From: a virus
IMG/VR virus record: IMGVR_UViG_3300032163_000111
Location: 1 to 22,571 of that record
DNA length: 22,571 bases
Reading direction: 5' to 3' (one strand)
Made by a program: the position numbers and the translations under genes. Below, one piece after another: positions 2,451-15,489 of the stretch (the first letter of the stretch is position 1; each line of letters starts with the position of its first letter). Under the pieces are notes generated by a model. The model ran no database searches and was not told where the DNA came from. It was given only the letters and a program-made list of their open reading frames with translations.

Positions 2451-4957
2451 CGTTTTTGATATTCCTTATGGCATTTCACCAGTTCCGGATAGAGTTTTGC
2501 GGCAATCTGTTTTGCATCGGAATCACCAGCTACATGCACATGAATACCACCAGTGACAGTCATTGAGCCGAGTGCATCGGCTTTAATGGTGGCCGGGGGA
2601 GGAACGTATCGTTTCACGTCAAATAACTCGGGTGCGGTTACAAACTTTGTGCGCCTTTCCAGCCCAACAGTTGCAGATGTTAACTTTTCCGTCCCCTGCC
2701 TCGTAGGCGTGGCCATAAATGAATGAGGTGAAATCAACTTTGTTGGTCCTTCTTGTTCAACGGCTGCGGGTGCGGTTACCAACTTTGTCCACCCTTCCAA
2801 CCCAACGGTTGCAGGTGTTGACTTTTCCGTCCCCTGCATAGGAGGCGTCGGCATAAATGAATGAGGTGAAATCAACTTTGTTGGTACTTCTTGTCCAACG
2901 GCCGCGGGTGCGGTATCGTCACCAGGGTGCGGGTGTCGCTTTGCCCAACGCGAAGAAATCTCGTCTATCTTGACGAAGCCAGCAAGATTCCAATCAAGTC
3001 CGACGAAGTTTGCGACCTTGTCGATGACACTGAGAAACTTCCAGATACCAACCAAAATGCTATCGACAAAATCATCCATGTTCCCCATTAACGTTCCGAT
3101 AAGAAGCGGAAGACCAACCAACGGATTGACGAATGAAAGGATAGCAAAGGCAAACAACGTGGCCCATTTCATCCAGACGGGTACGTCCTTGAACAAGGTC
3201 TTGAAGGCATAGTACGTTGCCATGACAAGGGCGATCGGCCAAACCATAGGTGAAAGTGCAAAATCAACTGCGGCTAAGGCGTGAGCCAATAACCATGTCC
3301 CCGCAGTCAGGACCGTCATGGCAGCAGCAGTAACACCAATCAGGTAACCAGCCGTATTCATTCCGTCGTTGCCATTTGGAATCAGGGTATCGATCAGCCA
3401 TGCGAACGGTGTCAATAGCATGTTGACCATTCGGTAGGCAAGTCCGAACGTGTCAATGAATCCACTACCGAATCCTTCCAAGAAACTTGCTACCCGGATT
3501 CGCATAACCTCCAAAAAGACTATGAATGGAATGAGGTGCGCCTTCATCATGGCTTGTGATTCCTGAACGCTATCGGCAAGCAGTCCACTCCACCGACCAG
3601 CTGCCTGTATCCATCCACCAAGTTTCTCCCCAATCTTGTCGACCGTGTGCATCAACCACCCAAACATCGTGTCGAGCACACCTTTGTTCTGCTGAATCTT
3701 CGTTGTAATGGACGTCAACCAGTCATTGGTTTTGTCATACGACTTCATCAACGGCCCTTGCAGAGAATCACCTATCCCAATGCGGAATTCGGTGAGGATG
3801 TTTTGAAATCTCTTCATCTTTCCATCGAGTGTCGCCATCTGGACGTCAGACATGCGTTGACCAGTTCCCTTGGCGAGTTCTTCGGTGAACTGTTCCTGCA
3901 GTTTTGCAATCTTCTTGGTATCGGCGGACAGCCTAATGATTAGACCGGCAGAATAGCCACCGACAATGCGGGTAAGGTCGCCGTACGGGATGACACGTAA
4001 TCTCTGCATAACCTTTATGAGTCCTTGACTCTTGATGTCAACGTCGGCAAGTGTCAAGCCGTATTTCCCCAGCACGGCTTCGTGCATCTTGGTTCCTTCG
4101 GCCAACATTTGGAACATCATGCGAAGCCTGGTGCCACCCTCACCACCCTTGTAATACAAATCAGCGGTCCCCATCAAGGCCAACAACTGATTGAACGGGA
4201 CTCCCATGGTTGTGGCTTCCGTTCCTACAACCTTTAGCATTTCGGACAATCGTCGCGCGTTAAGACTTGTGATGTTGGTGGCGAGCGCCATCTGGTCGAA
4301 CAGAATCGTAGCATCCGAAACGGGCCGGTTCAGTCGAGCCAGCAACGACAACATATCCTGTCCGGATTCCTGAACGCCAAACTGTGTCGCAGTCGCGTAG
4401 TTCAAAACGGCCTTGGTCAAGCCACTTAATTGTTCGGCGGGAATTGGCATCGTGGTCGAGAGGTCATACGAAGCATCCGCAATCTCTTTCGCCGAAAACC
4501 TGCCGGTAACGGCCATTGACCGCATTTGCATTTCCAGCATCTTCATCTGGTTGTTGTCGAAACCAGTAGCGGCCTGCATGTTCGCCAACGAATAGTAGAA
4601 TTCTCGCGTCGAACCGATAACGTCGGTGAGTCCTCGCTTCACGGCGTAGATTCCACCGAGCAATGAAACGTATGGGAACAGTCGAATGACGCCAGCGCGG
4701 AAACTAAAGAGGTGCGGTTCTGCACTTTGAAGGTGTCGCGAAAACGAACTGATACCAGCCCCCGCCCTGTTTGAATTGGTGGTGGTGGTGCCAAGCCCTC
4801 GGTTGAGGTGGTCAACGCTGGTCGTCGCCTTTGTGGTTTCGCCAGGCATCCGATCAACCAACTTCATCAACTTGTCGATCGACGACGAAATCTTGTTGGC
4901 GTTGACCGTAGCGTTGTCAGCTATGTTGATCGCCAAGCCTAAATTCAGTCCGTTCAC
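2447..4957 (-). CDS. Tail tape measure protein
   Basis: An 836-aa protein that sets tail length and is threaded through the tube. Residues about 100-400 resemble the TP901-type tape measure core (TREFYYSLANMQAATGFDNN, then RFSAKEIADASYDLSTT, then ATTMGVPFNQLLALMGTADL). Residues roughly 530-640 contain several hydrophobic segments (GYLIGVTAAAMTVLTAG; ALVMATYYAFKTLF; WATLFAFAILSFVNPLVGLP), common in this family. The C-terminal part holds a 46-residue tandem duplication. The start is a GTG with GGAGA seven bases upstream, just after the stop of the chaperone frameshift product. Position immediately after the tail chaperone and before the baseplate genes confirms the call. Confidence 0.92.
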   Translation of the reverse strand: MNGLNLGLAINIADNATVNANKISSSIDKLMKLVDRMPGETTKATTSVDHLNRGLGTTTTNSNRAGAGISSFSRHLQSAEPHLFSFRAGVIRLFPYVSLLGGIYAVKRGLTDVIGSTREFYYSLANMQAATGFDNNQMKMLEMQMRSMAVTGRFSAKEIADASYDLSTTMPIPAEQLSGLTKAVLNYATATQFGVQESGQDMLSLLARLNRPVSDATILFDQMALATNITSLNARRLSEMLKVVGTEATTMGVPFNQLLALMGTADLYYKGGEGGTRLRMMFQMLAEGTKMHEAVLGKYGLTLADVDIKSQGLIKVMQRLRVIPYGDLTRIVGGYSAGLIIRLSADTKKIAKLQEQFTEELAKGTGQRMSDVQMATLDGKMKRFQNILTEFRIGIGDSLQGPLMKSYDKTNDWLTSITTKIQQNKGVLDTMFGWLMHTVDKIGEKLGGWIQAAGRWSGLLADSVQESQAMMKAHLIPFIVFLEVMRIRVASFLEGFGSGFIDTFGLAYRMVNMLLTPFAWLIDTLIPNGNDGMNTAGYLIGVTAAAMTVLTAGTWLLAHALAAVDFALSPMVWPIALVMATYYAFKTLFKDVPVWMKWATLFAFAILSFVNPLVGLPLLIGTLMGNMDDFVDSILVGIWKFLSVIDKVANFVGLDWNLAGFVKIDEISSRWAKRHPHPGDDTAPAAVGQEVPTKLISPHSFMPTPPMQGTEKSTPATVGLEGWTKLVTAPAAVEQEGPTKLISPHSFMATPTRQGTEKLTSATVGLERRTKFVTAPELFDVKRYVPPPATIKADALGSMTVTGGIHVHVAGDSDAKQIAAKLYPELVKCHKEYQKR
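2631..2906 (-). repeat. 138-bp tandem duplication inside the tape measure gene
   Basis: Two adjacent 138-bp units (2631-2768 and 2769-2906) encode two 46-residue copies beginning TAPAAV and containing TKLISPHSFM, QGTEK and ATVGLE. A third partial start (TAPE) follows. The copies differ at several codons, so the duplication is not brand new. The reading frame is kept. Confidence 0.93.
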
Positions 4958-6657: not shown

Positions 6658-8142
6658 TTATTTTTCAGTTACTTTGAGATCGTCGCGTGTCTGGAAGATG
6701 TTGATGGTTCCAGATTCAATTGCTTCAACAGGATGGAAGGAGAAGTCGGCGACGATTCCACCATTGTCTGCGATCTCCTGCGTGTTGTTCTCTTCGTCGC
6801 ACTTCACTTTGGCGTTGTTCTCGTATCCACCGCGCGTGTTGAGTCCACCATTCTTGTATACGTCCTGCGCGAAAAACGTCAACGAATCAGAGAGTTTGTC
6901 GTACGTTTTCTTCACAGGCGGTTCTTGTTCAAGCCACATGAAGCTGCCTTGGAAACTGGCGATCATCCAGTTGGTCATTCTGCGAACGTGCGCGGAGTAA
7001 TGCTTTCGCAACGTTGAGAATGTCCGTGATGTCCGCACGATGAATCCCTTACCCTGCACCCATTGAACCGGGTTGAATCCAGCGGCAACTGAATTGTTAA
7101 CGTCTGTGGCAGAGTAGAACGGGAACTCCAATTCGTAGACATCACGAAGTGCAGTCGTGTCGCCAGCAGGGGCAATCCATGGGAAGCCACCACGCTGTAC
7201 GCATTTGCGAATCCATGCAGCACCGACAGCATGAGCCATCATCGGGATGGCAATTACACCACCGTTTTCGTCGTCAACATTTCCCCACCCACGCGTTCCA
7301 ACGAGGTAACTCTTGCTCTTAAGTAATGGAGCATACGTTGATGCGAGGGTCGTGATCGACGCGGCCTGGGGGGATGCAATGAGCCCGATTGCAACGCCAA
7401 GACCCTCAACATATGTCTGCAACGACTGAGCCGATGCAATGGCGTGAAGGTCAGCGTTCATAATCAACGGGATGTTGATACCGTTGAACCTGCTGTACGC
7501 GGCAATATAGTCGGAATCTGTTGGTGCAATCCCATCAAGTCCTCCGAGGAGTGCTGTTTGAGCAGCAACAACCGGAACGGTTGTGGCACCGGTAGCCAAT
7601 GCACAGATTACCCAACCAGACTTCTTGAGGAATTCATTGACAACGCTGGTGTTGTCGAGGTATTCGTGAACCTCCTTCATGACGGGTGCGAAATCCTTGG
7701 GGCCTTTGTATGACACGATGACGTCGCGTTTATTGGCATCGGCAACGTTCACCTTGATTTCGATGTACACATTACACCCATCGGCACCGGGACTCGGGTG
7801 ACCATACCAGCCAGACGTGAACACCCACGACCCCTTCGTCGCATCGTTGAACGTTTTGGTTGCGCTGACAGAGCCAGATGCACCAATGACACGACCTCCC
7901 CAAACGGTTGCACCGAATTCGCGGCAGTTGGCATACAATCCACGGCGCATGAACCCACCGAGGTATGAAGAACCATACTCACCGAAGACTTTCTTGTCGT
8001 CGGTGGGATTGTAAATAGGAACAGCGACATCGACAGGGCCACGTCGAGATGTAAACGCCATTCCCATGCTGAAAATGTCACTCGGAACAACCCGAGCCGC
8101 ATCAGCTGAATCTCTTTCGATAATGTTCATGCCTACGTTCAT
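6658..8142 (-). CDS. Contractile tail sheath protein
   Basis: A 494-aa protein forming the contractile sheath. The N-terminus (DIFSMGMAFTSRRGPVDVAV, then KKVFGEYGSSYLGGFMRRGL and GATVWGGRVIG) is the standard sheath pattern: a segment about passing over to a neighbouring subunit, then 'F.e.fG....yl......F..nGg..vyv.Rv'. The C-terminal region (TLRKHYSAHVRRMTNWMIAS, later FHPVEAIESGTI) matches the conserved C-terminal sheath domain. ATG at 8142 has GAGGAG six bases upstream. It is followed directly by the tube gene, the invariant order in contractile tails. The length lies between P2/Mu-type and T4-type sheaths. Confidence 0.93.
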   Translation of the reverse strand: MNVGMNIIERDSADAARVVPSDIFSMGMAFTSRRGPVDVAVPIYNPTDDKKVFGEYGSSYLGGFMRRGLYANCREFGATVWGGRVIGASGSVSATKTFNDATKGSWVFTSGWYGHPSPGADGCNVYIEIKVNVADANKRDVIVSYKGPKDFAPVMKEVHEYLDNTSVVNEFLKKSGWVICALATGATTVPVVAAQTALLGGLDGIAPTDSDYIAAYSRFNGINIPLIMNADLHAIASAQSLQTYVEGLGVAIGLIASPQAASITTLASTYAPLLKSKSYLVGTRGWGNVDDENGGVIAIPMMAHAVGAAWIRKCVQRGGFPWIAPAGDTTALRDVYELEFPFYSATDVNNSVAAGFNPVQWVQGKGFIVRTSRTFSTLRKHYSAHVRRMTNWMIASFQGSFMWLEQEPPVKKTYDKLSDSLTFFAQDVYKNGGLNTRGGYENNAKVKCDEENNTQEIADNGGIVADFSFHPVEAIESGTINIFQTRDDLKVTEK

Positions 8143-9834: not shown

Positions 9835-10517
9835 TGAGCCACTGAGAAATAGGCAACATTCGCGTGTTTCTTGAATTTGGCCATCAGTACCTCAGCCTCT
9901 TTGACGTACCCTTCGACATTGGGGGCAGGTATCGTCAAGCCGGGCAGAATAATCTGTGTCTTGGTCAATAATTCAGGTACTATCTTGTCCAATGCAGTGC
10001 TGAGAGCGTAGTCTGCAACGGCCCGTCTGTCACCAGCCTCAAGGTTGGCCTCTGCAGGGATACCGTAGCCATAGACTTCGAGGTGTCCAAAAACATTGGA
10101 TGCAAACACTAACATCTTGCGGACGAGGTCGAACGTCCAGTCGCCAAACATTTGTGTTTCGAGTTCCGTGGAATACGTGCCAAGTGGAAGAATCCCGACT
10201 TCCTCATACATCTGGACAATGCGGTCACCCTTATACACGGGGAAATTCTTCGCGACCTTTAGTTCCTCGCCGTCCAGATAAATTTTGGTCGGTTTCAATA
10301 CTACGGCAAGTGGAACGAGCATCGTGGATTCGGTTACATCAATCTGTTCCTTGACGATGAACGGTTTCATGGATGCCAACTTCTCGAGTCCTTCTGCGAC
10401 GTAAGAAACCAACAACGCGTTCGGTGTTGGATGTTTGTCGACGTCTTCGCCTGCCGGATAATACTTGGCAACGTTTCGACTTCTCAGTTCAGCAGTCAGC
10501 AGATCGATCACGTTCAT
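9831..10517 (-). CDS. Hypothetical head-tail connector-region protein
   Basis: A 228-aa protein between the MuF gene and the closure protein, overlapping both by ATGA. It has a long N-terminal helical stretch, then a strand-rich centre (STMLVPLAVVLKPTKIYLDG, EELKVAKNFPVYKG), a segment about an 'FGDWTFDLVRKMLVFASN' helix, and a C-terminal helical part. I recognise no named family. Position suggests a neck adaptor or a small head component. Confidence 0.55.
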   Translation of the reverse strand: MNVIDLLTAELRSRNVAKYYPAGEDVDKHPTPNALLVSYVAEGLEKLASMKPFIVKEQIDVTESTMLVPLAVVLKPTKIYLDGEELKVAKNFPVYKGDRIVQMYEEVGILPLGTYSTELETQMFGDWTFDLVRKMLVFASNVFGHLEVYGYGIPAEANLEAGDRRAVADYALSTALDKIVPELLTKTQIILPGLTIPAPNVEGYVKEAEVLMAKFKKHANVAYFSVAQ

Positions 10518-12169
10518 GGTTTCACCGGTCCAATAAGATTTTCAAACAATCGGCAAATCTTCATCAAGGGTTCGTCTTTTTTCGCCAGTTCATACATTTC
10601 GGAATTGCGATTCAGGAACCACGTCACGCTTTCGGCGAATTGTTCCATCGGGCTTTCTAGTGAATTCTTCGTCAAAAAACCAAATTCGGTTTTCCGTACC
10701 CAGTTTGCAGCATCGAAGACGTTGCCAGGTTCTTGTTTTGTCCAGCAGACTCGAGCGAAGGACTCGTAAAGACTGTGGAACTGGTAGTGGAGAGAGTGGC
10801 CAACTTCATGTCCGAGTGTGTAACGAAACAACTCATCGTTCATGTGCTGTGGATCGTTAAATTGAATCAGCTTGCCATCTAAGGAATACTGAGCGTATGA
10901 GGTTACGGCAGCTCCCGACGCAAGGATTTGGGTCAACTTCATGTTCTTGAGCATGACTTCATAAGGCATTGCATCCAAGATGTCGGCAATCGCGTTCATC
11001 TGTTCGATTTCAAACTCTTGGTCAACCGTGATACCATACGTGTCGGCAACATATTCAGCCGAATCCATTACACTTGTAAAATCTCCAATTCGAGTAGCAT
11101 TGACGTAAGGCTCGGGGTCAGGATTGTTTTCAGTCTCTCGTATAAACTGACCAACTCCACGTTCGTCCCGCACTCCTTCGATTCGCGCGCTTCCACTTTC
11201 GTATGTCAACGAACAACCACATTTCACAACATTCGATGCACTTGCATTGGGGTCATGCGGCCGTTCCATTTCTTCCCCACCGATGTCAAACTTTTCTTCA
11301 AACTTGAGAGACTGTCCAGCAACCGCAGCGTGAGTCTTCCGCATACTCTTCCTGATTATCTGAATCCATGTCTTGATGATCTCGACGCCATACCGTTGGC
11401 GATACTCGTCAGCGAATTCATACTCGCCGTAGTTTGCAGCGCCAGCCAATTCTGTTACCGCGATCATTTCGGCGTTTGAATCTTCTCCCAGAACTCTCCT
11501 GACACGCGAGGTCATTTGCTTTACTGATTCCCCTGTTTCATATCCTCTGGCAAGTGTCGCCTGCAGACGTTCTCTCATGTTGGTGGTGATGTTCTGCGAT
11601 GTTATCTTGAAATCCTTGCCGAATAAATACTCCCGGGCCTTTCGATTGAACTCCTCAAACTTTAAGTCAAAGTTGACGCCAATCCCGATACTGAAAGCAT
11701 CTCGTCCTTTTCGGATCTCCCGTTCAACCTTGTCAGGTATGGCGTCCATGTGTTGCCGCGCGAGGTCGAACACTTTCGCGTTACTGTTTGCCGATTTGCT
11801 TGCCCTTCGGAAATCCCTCGTCCTCTCATTGGTGTCGTGCCTCAGCATGTCGTAGGTCTGCTGTGTCGCGTTCCGCACCGTGTTTTGTTTTGAACTCGCC
11901 AATAGCGCCATCATTAAGAAAGAAAAAGGCAAGCCCTTCTGTATTCCGGTCTTCGCCCCGCCAAGCATCTCTACAGAAACCGGTTCTATTTCTGGACTTG
12001 CCTTTATGTTGAGATTATCAAGTTCGTCTACTCTGGACGCCAACAGATGGTAACCCTTCTCTTCGTCGTCCTCATCTACTCCCTCTACAATCTCCTCTGC
12101 AACATCGGCATACACACCTGACAGGGTCTCAACAAGATCCGCAACGTCTTGAGTGAAGTCATACGCCAT
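10514..12169 (-). CDS. MuF-type minor head protein fused to a HEXXH zinc metallopeptidase domain
   Basis: A 551-aa two-part protein. Residues about 190-335 form a MuF/SPP1 gp7-like head morphogenesis domain: REDLQ-like helix (RERLQATLARGYETGES), AEMIAVTELAGAANYGEYEF, then KTWIQIIRKSMRKTHAAVAG and a closing 'C.C' (VKCGCSLTYE). The C-terminal domain carries HEVGH at 454-458 and a downstream SPMEQFAESVTWFL (Glu about 513) in the usual gluzincin spacing for a third zinc ligand. MuF proteins enter the capsid in few copies. MuF proteins with variable C-terminal toxin or enzyme domains are an established class in temperate phages. This one could be ejected with the DNA, or process virion proteins. 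ATG overlaps the upstream stop (TAATG). No obvious immunity gene follows. Confidence 0.85.
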   Translation of the reverse strand: MAYDFTQDVADLVETLSGVYADVAEEIVEGVDEDDEEKGYHLLASRVDELDNLNIKASPEIEPVSVEMLGGAKTGIQKGLPFSFLMMALLASSKQNTVRNATQQTYDMLRHDTNERTRDFRRASKSANSNAKVFDLARQHMDAIPDKVEREIRKGRDAFSIGIGVNFDLKFEEFNRKAREYLFGKDFKITSQNITTNMRERLQATLARGYETGESVKQMTSRVRRVLGEDSNAEMIAVTELAGAANYGEYEFADEYRQRYGVEIIKTWIQIIRKSMRKTHAAVAGQSLKFEEKFDIGGEEMERPHDPNASASNVVKCGCSLTYESGSARIEGVRDERGVGQFIRETENNPDPEPYVNATRIGDFTSVMDSAEYVADTYGITVDQEFEIEQMNAIADILDAMPYEVMLKNMKLTQILASGAAVTSYAQYSLDGKLIQFNDPQHMNDELFRYTLGHEVGHSLHYQFHSLYESFARVCWTKQEPGNVFDAANWVRKTEFGFLTKNSLESPMEQFAESVTWFLNRNSEMYELAKKDEPLMKICRLFENLIGPVKP

Positions 12170-12638: not shown

Positions 12639-15329
12639 TTACGGCAGAACCGTGACCAACGACATCTTGTCGCCAATCGGGCTCTCGAGTGCGTCTTCCT
12701 GGTAGATGTAGTACTCATCACCACCAAGCAATGCCCCATCGGCTCCACGAACAGGGTACGGACCTTTGAGTGACATCGGTTCGTAGATGCGGAAGATCGT
12801 GGCATCTTTTTGCGACAACAGGATGTACTGATCATCGAACACATCCGAGCCGAATGTCGGCAGGTTCGCGGTGCGGCCGTAGTTACCTTCACCAACAACG
12901 GACGACGCGGAGAAGCCAGAACGTGCCTGCGAACTTGCGTACGCATCGGCCTGCGTCATGTAGTTGGCTGTCACTTCGGACGCCAATACGAATTCGGGCT
13001 TGTAACCACGGGTCTCACGGTGGTATGCAGCCTGATTCGAAATCGAAAAGAGCAGTTTGTTCATCCACTCGCCCCACTTATAGCCTGTGGCAGCCGTCAA
13101 CGAGAATCGCACCTCGTTAGTGGCTTTCTTTCCGCTTACGACGATTGCCTTTGTGTCGGCGATATTCTGCGGAGCACCGTCAGCATCAACAAACAGAATC
13201 TTTCCTTCCGGTCCACTGAGTACATAGAACGTTGTTCCGGTGACACTGACTTCATACTCGTTTATTGAGACACCATCAACCGTTACGGTGATGGGTTCGC
13301 CACTCGAGATTGACGCGCCAGAGCAAACCGTGAATTGCGACGTTGCACCGTTTCCAACGCCGTTGTACGTGAACGCAACCGACCCAAACGCAAGTGCGGT
13401 ATTCCGCATGTCAGCCATCACCATCTGCTGCAGGGACCGGCGCATGTCCCCAATCAAGTTTGCAATACCGCGACTGATACCGGTGATGTTTGGTGTTCGT
13501 TTCGACAGCGTGGCGAATTCATCGGAGAATGACGCCTGCAATTTGCTTGCAGTCGCATCGATGTCGAACCACTCTGTCGTGAGCTTGCCTTTCGGAATCG
13601 CTTTCAATTCGCCAACCTTGATTTCAGACTGACGAGCCTTGGACGGCTTGTAGGTCTTCTTCGTCCCAGCGTTGCCGGCTTCTCGACGATACCGTGTAAT
13701 CGGTACTTGGTCTCGTTTGTTCTCCATCGGACCGAAATCAACCAACTGATTGATAATCTGGTCCGAATAGACTTCCTCCAACACGATGCGCGAAATCGTG
13801 TAGGGAACATCGAAGTCCGCAGGTGTCGTGGTGGCGTCCAACATGGCCACAATCTTGGCACCTTCGGCTACGAGATTAGCCTCATGAAGAGAGTCATAAA
13901 TCTTGAGGAATTTCTGGACTGACGGTTGCCGATTCTTCCCGGAAACGATGTCCTCTTTCTTTGCCGCAACGATACCGGTTTCCAGTACCATGTCGGTCAG
14001 GGCCTCAACCCCTTTCAGATGTTCCGCCGTTACTTTGATTTCCATGCTGCCTGTTCCTTTCCCTCTGATACCTTCCGTGTTCATTTTTTCTTGAGCGACA
14101 CCAAGGTTGAACAGTTTCGTTGCATCCTCAATGGCAGCGTCGATACCGGCTTCGTTCGCAAACGTTCGGGCTTTGAGTGAATCCAGTATGCTCTTTCGGA
14201 CGTCTTCGCCTTGTGTAAGAACACCCACCTTGTCAAGCAAATACTTGCCGAGTTTTTCGGTCAACGCCCTCGCATCGCGAATTTTCTGCTCCCCGTCAAT
14301 GAACGCTTTCAACCGTGCGGTCGAATCATCGATTGCACTGACATCGACTACAGGTGTCGGTGACGCTTGAGCAGTTTCCGTTTGCGCAGGCTGCTCTGGA
14401 AGGGTCGGTGGCACGATTGTGTCGACGATCGCTTTCAAGTCGGTTGCCAACTTTGTGAGGTGTGCGTTCTTCTTTTCGGCATCAAGCGTGGTGTCGGCCT
14501 GCATCTTCTCAACGCCGGTCTTCAGCGCCGTGAACGAATCCAAGATGTCGGCAGGCAACGCGGTGCTGTTCGCCTTCACTTGTGCCTGAATGACATCGAC
14601 CAGGGTGGTAACGCTTTTGATCAGCTCCCCATTTTGGGCGGCCAATTTTTCGAGTTCTTTTGGGTCCATGAGTACTTCCTCCTGTGAATGTTTGATGTCC
14701 GTAATTCTTGTTCTATTTACCAACTTGTCCAACTCCACGGCGTCGACCAATTTCAGCCGTGTGCGTTCACCAGCGGCAGCCGAATCGAGAAAGCAGAAAT
14801 CGTAGCCGAGCAATTTCACGATTTTGTCGACCACGATGTAGTATTGACCGTCTGCATCTTCTCGCACACTCTGAATTCCGATTGCACGTTGCGACACCCC
14901 TAGTTCAACCCCCTCATCAAACAGTTGCTTGACCTTGATACCCTTCTCGGTTTCAAGCACCCTGATGTTGACAACGGTTTCACCGGTCTCGGTCAATTTC
15001 AGGATATCGGGGATACCGGCGAGTTCTTCCGGATTTCCACGAATGTCACCCTCGGGATGGCCGATATATGCAGTCAACTGCCACTTCTGAGAGGACCAAT
15101 CAGCTACCGCGTCTCTTTGCACGACAAACGGAATAACACGGTTGTTACTGTTGATGACGTTGGCGATCGAGCCAACCGTTTCGAATCGATACTTTTTGTC
15201 GGTCAGTTTTTCGACCTTGATGGGCACGACATCCGTGATGAATTCAACGGGTTTATCCAGCACCATGTCGAGCATGTGAGCCGGAATCTTGTCGATGCGG
15301 TTCATCTTTTCAACGTTTTGTTTTCCCAT
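12639..15329 (-). CDS. Fused prohead protease-scaffold-major capsid protein with internal starts
   Basis: An 896-aa protein. Residues 1-200: protease of the T4 gp21 type, with a His at 91 (IGHPEG) and Ser at 146 (LGVSQRAIG), 55 residues apart, then GYDFCFLDSAAAGE. Residues 221-428: charged, helical, Ala/Glu/Lys/Thr-rich scaffold. Residues 429-896: major capsid protein (KKEDIVSGKNRQPSVQ, QVPITRYRREAGNAG, then an inserted beta domain near 620-690). ATG at 15329 has AAGGAG seven bases upstream. Two further in-frame ATGs with good Shine-Dalgarno sequences occur exactly at the domain borders (14669 and 14045), so the same gene probably makes protease-scaffold-capsid, scaffold-capsid and capsid alone. 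An alternative is pure post-translational cleavage by the protease. Confidence 0.88.
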   Translation of the reverse strand: MGKQNVEKMNRIDKIPAHMLDMVLDKPVEFITDVVPIKVEKLTDKKYRFETVGSIANVINSNNRVIPFVVQRDAVADWSSQKWQLTAYIGHPEGDIRGNPEELAGIPDILKLTETGETVVNIRVLETEKGIKVKQLFDEGVELGVSQRAIGIQSVREDADGQYYIVVDKIVKLLGYDFCFLDSAAAGERTRLKLVDAVELDKLVNRTRITDIKHSQEEVLMDPKELEKLAAQNGELIKSVTTLVDVIQAQVKANSTALPADILDSFTALKTGVEKMQADTTLDAEKKNAHLTKLATDLKAIVDTIVPPTLPEQPAQTETAQASPTPVVDVSAIDDSTARLKAFIDGEQKIRDARALTEKLGKYLLDKVGVLTQGEDVRKSILDSLKARTFANEAGIDAAIEDATKLFNLGVAQEKMNTEGIRGKGTGSMEIKVTAEHLKGVEALTDMVLETGIVAAKKEDIVSGKNRQPSVQKFLKIYDSLHEANLVAEGAKIVAMLDATTTPADFDVPYTISRIVLEEVYSDQIINQLVDFGPMENKRDQVPITRYRREAGNAGTKKTYKPSKARQSEIKVGELKAIPKGKLTTEWFDIDATASKLQASFSDEFATLSKRTPNITGISRGIANLIGDMRRSLQQMVMADMRNTALAFGSVAFTYNGVGNGATSQFTVCSGASISSGEPITVTVDGVSINEYEVSVTGTTFYVLSGPEGKILFVDADGAPQNIADTKAIVVSGKKATNEVRFSLTAATGYKWGEWMNKLLFSISNQAAYHRETRGYKPEFVLASEVTANYMTQADAYASSQARSGFSASSVVGEGNYGRTANLPTFGSDVFDDQYILLSQKDATIFRIYEPMSLKGPYPVRGADGALLGGDEYYIYQEDALESPIGDKMSLVTVLP
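14043..14060 (-). promoter_or_regulatory. Internal RBS and ATG for capsid-only product
   Basis: AAAGGA (14060-14055) lies nine bases before an in-frame ATG (codon 429). The predicted product of 468 aa begins MEIKVTAEHLKGVEALTD, the likely start of the capsid domain. The size is normal for a major capsid protein. Confidence 0.6.
14667..14683 (-). promoter_or_regulatory. Internal RBS and ATG for scaffold-capsid product
   Basis: A perfect AGGAGG (14683-14678) stands eight bases before an in-frame ATG (codon 221 of the fusion). The predicted product of 676 aa begins MDPKELEKLAAQNG, the head of the helical scaffold segment. A full Shine-Dalgarno at exactly this domain border is unlikely to be chance. 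Confidence 0.75.
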
Positions 15330-15489
15330 TCTTCATCTCCTTTTGAAGTCGCTTCTTGCTCTCCGTGATAGGTTCAAGGACGACCTTCCCCTTGACGCCG
15401 TTGTGATTGAGTTCAACAATCCGTTCCTTCGAGGAAACGTGATCGCCACCGTTCTCAGGTCCGTGCCATCCGCTGTTTTCGTTTCCCAT
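15310..15489 (-). CDS. Small hydrophilic protein upstream of capsid fusion
   Basis: A 59-aa protein (starts MGNENSGWHGPENGGDHVSS, ends KNGKTKR). Its last 20 bases overlap the start of the capsid fusion gene, whose Shine-Dalgarno lies inside it. AAGG stands five bases before its ATG. It is highly charged, Gly/Asn-rich at the front and Lys-rich at the end, with a short strand (GVKGKVVLEPI) in the middle. No family recognised. It is the first gene of the morphogenesis operon in this window. Confidence 0.65.
   Translation of the reverse strand: MGNENSGWHGPENGGDHVSSKERIVELNHNGVKGKVVLEPITESKKRLQKEMKNGKTKR

Follow-up and report, generated by a model that had tools for sequence, protein, structure and literature searches.

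How does a phage that encodes its protease, scaffold and major capsid protein in one gene avoid placing a protease and a scaffold on each of several hundred shell subunits? This problem is posed by every tripartite capsid gene, and we addressed it for a gene on the minus strand of the window, by which we mean the whole analysed stretch of 22,571 nucleotides of IMG/VR record IMGVR_UViG_3300032163_000111 (Table 1). An initial annotation of this DNA had described an ORF of 896 codons and proposed that two in-frame internal starts, located at the domain borders, give three nested products and thereby set the stoichiometry of the head proteins. The ORF is indeed open over 896 codons plus stop, from an ATG preceded by its own Shine-Dalgarno (SD) sequence (aaaaggagatgaagaATG), and it encodes a protease, a scaffold and an HK97-fold capsid domain in that order, with no stop codon in frame between the scaffold and capsid segments. 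A further ORF of ~57 codons (MGNENSGWHGPENGG..., window 15330-15487, minus strand) lies ahead of the fused gene and extends, in a different frame, over the SD and start of that gene; translational coupling between the two is possible.

Table 1 Features of the fused head gene, in window coordinates. Internal starts and their products are predicted.
Feature	Position	Strand	Basis
Single ORF, protease-scaffold-major capsid protein fusion, 896 aa	12639..15329	minus	homologous fused ORFs
Shine-Dalgarno of full-length start, AAGGAG	15337..15342	minus	-8.7 kcal/mol
Start codon 1 (ATG), full-length protease-scaffold-capsid	15327..15329	minus	open RNA
Protease segment, residues 1-220, Peptidase S77 / T4 gp21 type	14670..15329	minus	profile and fold matches
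His91, predicted catalytic, invariant	15057..15059	minus	alignment
Ser146, predicted catalytic nucleophile, invariant	14892..14894	minus	alignment
Internal Shine-Dalgarno of start 221, AGGAGG	14678..14683	minus	conserved in 54/54 fusions
Internal start ATG, codon 221, scaffold-capsid product, 676 aa	14667..14669	minus	M221 conservation, open RNA
Helical scaffold segment, residues 221-428	14046..14669	minus	helices 223-418 in AlphaFold model
Internal Shine-Dalgarno of start 429, AAAGGA	14055..14060	minus	kept in 4 clade members
Internal start ATG, codon 429, capsid-only product, 468 aa	14043..14045	minus	clade conservation, open RNA
Major capsid protein segment, residues 429-896, HK97 fold, nearest T4 gp23	12642..14045	minus	predicted structure

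The individual domains were compared to known head proteins. The protease segment matched the head maturation protease family phrog_207 (E 1.2e-10), and the window protein scored 23.1-24.9 bits against PF03420 (Peptidase S77), under the curated cut-off of 27; the same profile was matched by 43 of 44 relatives at E<=0.01. A profile built from the family matched T4 gp21 (5jbl) with an E-value of 2.8e-15. The AlphaFold model of residues 1-430 contained a confident protease beta fold at residues 45-204, for which Foldseek returned 5jbl as the best match (E 1.9e-6, TM 0.67 on target), with herpesvirus proteases next. The protease of the fused ORF is of the T4 gp21 (S77) type and not ClpP-like, and the His91 and Ser146 signatures, found where the initial annotation had placed them, were invariant in 43-44 aligned relatives. 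The capsid model (residues 400-896) adopted an HK97 fold, with 286 PDB matches at E<=0.001 headed by phage capsids and the T4 head chain 7vrt_bj as the best structural match (Z 17.4, rmsd 2.6, 244 aligned). Against PF07068 (Gp23) the window protein reached 17.2 bits, compared to a cut-off of 24.4, and 10 of 54 relatives matched at E<=0.01; NCBIfam gave no match for the fusion. Residues 197-218 were modelled with pLDDT < 50, and residues 423-432, which include Met429 (residues 24-33 of the capsid model), with low confidence. The AlphaFold models thus agree with the domain borders drawn in the initial annotation, Met221 and Met429 each lying inside a disordered inter-domain linker.

Domain order and identity both recall the T4-like phages, which likewise have an S77 protease, a helical scaffold and a gp23-like capsid protein in the order 21-22-23 but encode them in three separate genes. 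Tripartite genes have been described for Gifsy-2 (Effantin et al. 2010, cited in PMC7762592) and for Pseudomonas phage MD8 (PMC8508860), where gp5 comprises protease, scaffold and major capsid protein. The window gene is of the same kind and shares their domain order, but represents a different lineage: the Gifsy-2 and MD8 genes belong to other sequence lineages and carry a ClpP-like protease domain, in whose place the window gene has the S77/gp21 profile and fold match.

Direct searches of viral and genome contigs with the window protein alone gave no match. An alignment-based scan of IMG/VR recovered 80 loci, in the majority of which a single frame of 740-1060 aa runs from protease to capsid without a stop, and removal of sequences >80% identical left the 54 fusions used below; as they were fetched by similarity to a fused protein, the set is biased towards fused forms, though not towards SD sites. 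The nearest loci, by best tblastn segment, were L008 (59%), L009 and L010 (57%), and L011 and L013 (31%), one contig of the last pair being found also in a deltaproteobacterial MAG. Comparable single ORFs are present in two isolate or enrichment records, Virus Rctr41k (Rctr41k_30, KX853513), whose 871-aa product is annotated 'capsid protein and protease', and Microcystis phage yong1 (QNL13339), with 848 aa and a Mu-I-like protease. Gp6 of Brevibacillus phage Emery (L105, 2955-5975), entered as a 'hypothetical protein' of 1006 aa, gives a match to the Rctr41k fusion over the protease-scaffold part and is probably another unannotated fusion. In one prophage relative (L024, ~4462-4480), a TAATG stop/start interrupts the fused ORF shortly before the point at which the mature capsid protein is predicted to begin, and near relatives (L033 and others) are fused; this may be either a natural split or a frameshift.

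At the protease/scaffold border, the AGGAGG reported 8 nt before ATG221 was confirmed. Duplex energies with the 16S tail were -8.7, -10.3 and -5.8 kcal/mol for the sites of codons 1, 221 and 429, respectively, under the assumption of an E. coli-type anti-SD, which may not be that of the host; SD-like sequences do precede most of the window's own genes. All 54 non-redundant fusions had an SD-preceded ATG or GTG at this border (SD dG <= -6 kcal/mol, 5-75 codons past the protease end), with 15.7 expected from the frequency of such upstream sequences elsewhere in the same ORFs and the count of start codons in the stretch. The exact Met221 alignment column was used in 43 of the 54, the next-best column of the whole alignment in 16, and Met221 was >=90% conserved amid an otherwise variable linker. 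The distance from SD to start ranged from 5 to 11 nt. The GGAG core lay in codon phase 2, 0 and 1 in 34, 18 and 2 sequences, respectively, and was spelled by 45 different hexapeptides (e.g. SQEEVL, KQGDDE, SRRKHI, TGDPPT), which indicates that the nucleotide motif rather than the peptide is under selection.

The RNA around these starts was also unusually open. The openness of the border-1 start, calculated over 70 nt, ranked at a median of the top 2.3% of its ORF and within the top 5% in 37 of 54 fusions, as compared to a median of 63% for 198 other in-frame ATG/GTG codons with equally good SDs (Mann-Whitney p = 2.7e-27), a difference that may partly reflect the AT-rich linker and its base composition. 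In the window ORF, local RNA energies were -6.4, -6.5 and -3.0 kcal/mol at codons 1, 221 and 429 (ORF mean -15.7 +/- 3.9), and the most open few percent of its ATGs comprised only codons 1, 9, 221 and 429, with an SD at 1, 221 and 429. Synonymous-codon shuffling singled out neither 221 nor 429 (p 0.13-0.57); this test is weak because the SD motif is already dictated by the residues of the linker, and it was replaced by the position-wise expectation, the codon-phase counts and RNA openness. Taken at the level of sequence, internal initiation at codon 221 is strongly supported.

SD strength by itself was a poor guide to starts. The strongest SD-like sequence of the window ORF (-11.5 kcal/mol) precedes GTG145 in the protease active site, a candidate that was rejected as its local RNA is structured (-14.0 kcal/mol). 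Similar SD-like decoys occur in ~15 relatives at the active-site EGG-V-M column (window 14892-14950), and such sites are a warning against calling starts from the SD only. The GTG codons that lie close to the Rctr41k capsid border, and comparable sites with a strong SD-like sequence, were likewise discarded, being structured or outside a conserved column, as was ATG185 of MD8 (SD -11.4), which lies inside the ClpP domain and at which 80% of positions are as open, versus 0.9% for ATG220.

The second internal site, AAAGGA nine nucleotides before ATG429, is present as described. Codon positions with an SD that equals that of 221 in strength make up 0.7% of the ORF, and those with one that equals that of 429 make up 7.8%, so that 221 stands out on SD alone and 429 does not. 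The pair of SD and ATG429 was retained in all four non-redundant members of the window's clade, as AAAGGA in the window and L008, AAAGGG in L009 and AAAAGGAG in L011. Over aligned columns, L008, L009 and L011 share 61%, 59% and 38% identity with the window, and no other SD in the ORF of L011 is as strong as this one. The border-2 linker of the clade has few invariant residues besides Gly420, Lys424, Gly425 and Met429, and ATG429 is the most open ATG of the window gene (top 0.9%). A search for further two-start clade members in viral and genome contigs returned the same loci only. We consider it fairly probable that start 429 is real, as a feature of this clade.

Start 221 could also be the only addition to start 1, with ATG429 an ordinary Met following a G/K-rich linker and the capsid protein freed by proteolysis alone. 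An SD and start at border 2 are absent from 50 of the 54 fusions, where proteolytic release would have to occur, and most of these have a conserved VLE(S/N/K)E-TG-P motif at this position; Rctr41k_30 and yong1, homologous or analogous fusions which resemble the window in having an SD and ATG at border 1, differ from its clade in that no comparable pair was found at border 2. The 429-equivalent RNA was open only in the window and not in L008 (37%), L009 (26%) and L011 (93%), the shuffling result applies to 429 as well, and conservation of Lys424-Gly425 could be at the protein level. What speaks for a start is that the clade has few invariant Mets, of which Met429 is one, that every member has an SD before it, that in the window ORF no ATG lies in more open RNA, and that L008 and L009 do not have the VLE(S/N)E motif which is frequent at this place among the other fusions. 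Release by proteolysis alone is the less likely alternative. As a separate observation, L004, L005, L026 and others, fusions in which start 429 is absent, conserve G-(P/D)-V-(L/I)-E-x-E-(T/L)-G-x-P at the scaffold/capsid border, a candidate maturation cleavage site.

Fusions with other protease types were then compared. All six had an ATG with SD at the protease end, namely PAJU2, RHph_X2_26 and EcoS-705R7 (HK97-type prohead protease), MD8 and its relative mEp213 (ClpP-like), and RcBaka; five of these junction starts were in the most open 2% of the ORF, the exception being RcBaka (42%). Moraxella phage Mcat7, which is related to the PAJU2 fusion, encodes protease and capsid in two overlapping genes, the second of which starts at the protease/capsid junction behind the SD AAGGAG; the internal start thus has its counterpart in the start codon of what is an independent gene elsewhere. 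In the T4-like cyanophage P-RSM4, 21, 22 and 23 are individual genes that follow one another in this order, with an SD-like sequence before each. It is reasonably likely that fused head genes as a general rule keep the ribosome-binding site of the downstream gene as an internal start, across S77, Mu-I-like, HK97/PAJU2-type and ClpP-like lineages. If so, fused capsid genes would encode sets of C-terminally nested subunits in which capsid >= scaffold >= protease, and the window clade would be an extreme case, with starts at both borders and a shell built from three nested forms.

For the window, we regard it as very probable that a T4-type head module has been fused in one frame, fusion being the presumed direction of evolution, and that the ribosome-binding sites of the former downstream genes are used as in-frame starts. 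Initiation at codon 1 would yield protease-scaffold-capsid (896 aa), at codon 221 scaffold-capsid (676 aa) and at codon 429, in the window and its close relatives, the capsid alone (468 aa). All these subunits, nested at the C-terminus, would assemble together into the shell, a minority with protease and a subset with scaffold, so that scaffold and protease would enter the prohead tethered to a shell subunit via their own capsid domain. During maturation the protease would cut away the scaffold and the capsid arm, as T4 gp21 does, with cleavage after L/I-x-E freeing the parts.

The three nested products proposed in the initial annotation are accordingly supported to different degrees, strongly for start 221 (54 fusions) and moderately for start 429 (four relatives). 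Its stoichiometric argument, few protease copies, more scaffold and most capsid, can be retained as a rank order, because the capsid C-terminus is shared by all products and capsid >= scaffold >= protease would follow from nesting whatever the rates; SD strengths alone do not make the capsid-only form the main product. Its analogy to lambda C/Nu3, whose nested scaffold was reportedly described by Shaw and Murialdo in 1980 and is paralleled by Mu I/Z, applies to the in-frame internal start at the protease/scaffold border, seen in the window at the sequence level only, and fails for the free scaffold: the lambda frame ends after the scaffold, whereas the window frame runs on into the capsid protein and, with no stop between the domains, initiation yields no free scaffold.

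Nested translation was also weighed against a single 896-aa polyprotein that gives rise to smaller species by autocleavage, its internal SDs being coding coincidences. Cleavage by S77 proteases takes place after L/I-x-E (PMC9026906), 32 of 46 S77-type fusions have such a site upstream of the border-1 Met, and a self-processing fusion has been proposed for PAJU2 (cited in PMC8306868). The window, however, has no L-x-E site before Met221, and a polyprotein would fix protease, scaffold and capsid at 1:1:1, with a protease on every shell subunit. It also leaves the SD and start of all 54 fusions, kept in open RNA despite shifting codon phase and peptide, to coincidence, and related fusions have split-gene cousins that start at the same junction, which together make a polyprotein-only gene very unlikely. 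Loss of both internal sites from homologues that keep the fusion, named in the initial annotation as evidence against nested starts, was not seen in this set: none of the 54 lacks the site at 221, and 50 lack the one at 429. That the SD-like motifs are instead ribosome pause sites for co-translational folding at domain borders would fit their location in inter-domain linkers but is hardly credible, as pausing requires no ATG/GTG 5-11 nt downstream, found in 54 of 54 and in one shared column in 43, and predicts no selection for open RNA around it.

Several elements of nested translation are known from other systems. Fused protease-capsid genes occur in Arthrobacter phages (PMC5513430) and PAJU2 (cited in PMC8306868), and a nested start in separate protease/scaffold genes is known from lambda (cited in PMC8508860). 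T4 gene 21 itself has a second start, at Met45, that gives an essential short product (PMC9026906). The delta domain of HK97 gp5 is, like the window scaffold, fused to the capsid N-terminus, but there scaffold and capsid are fixed at 1:1 (PMC10275583) and the protease gene is separate; a capsid-only start in the window would permit a scaffold:capsid ratio below 1:1. MD8 gp5, with its SD and ATG after the protease, showed no second start at the capsid border, and the accessible part of PMC8508860 makes no mention of internal starts in this gene. Tripartite capsid genes and nested starts in separate genes are thus already known, and what appears new is internal starts inside the fused gene, of which we found no report in a literature that was covered in part and whose silence is no proof of absence. 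Nested products would be missed by annotation pipelines because one ORF is called, and many phage 'capsid-protease fusion' entries are predicted to hide one or two further products. The comparison suggests nested translation as a common answer to the problem posed by tripartite genes.

Regarding the gene neighbourhood, neither a portal nor a terminase was identified in the examined parts of the window. The minus-strand gene at 10514-12169 encodes a Mu F-like head morphogenesis protein (PF04233, above cut-off) with a possible zinc metallopeptidase C-terminal domain (PF15890, below cut-off). The product of 6658-8142, also on the minus strand, gave a sub-threshold match to a phage tail sheath C-terminal domain, which suggests a phage with a contractile tail.
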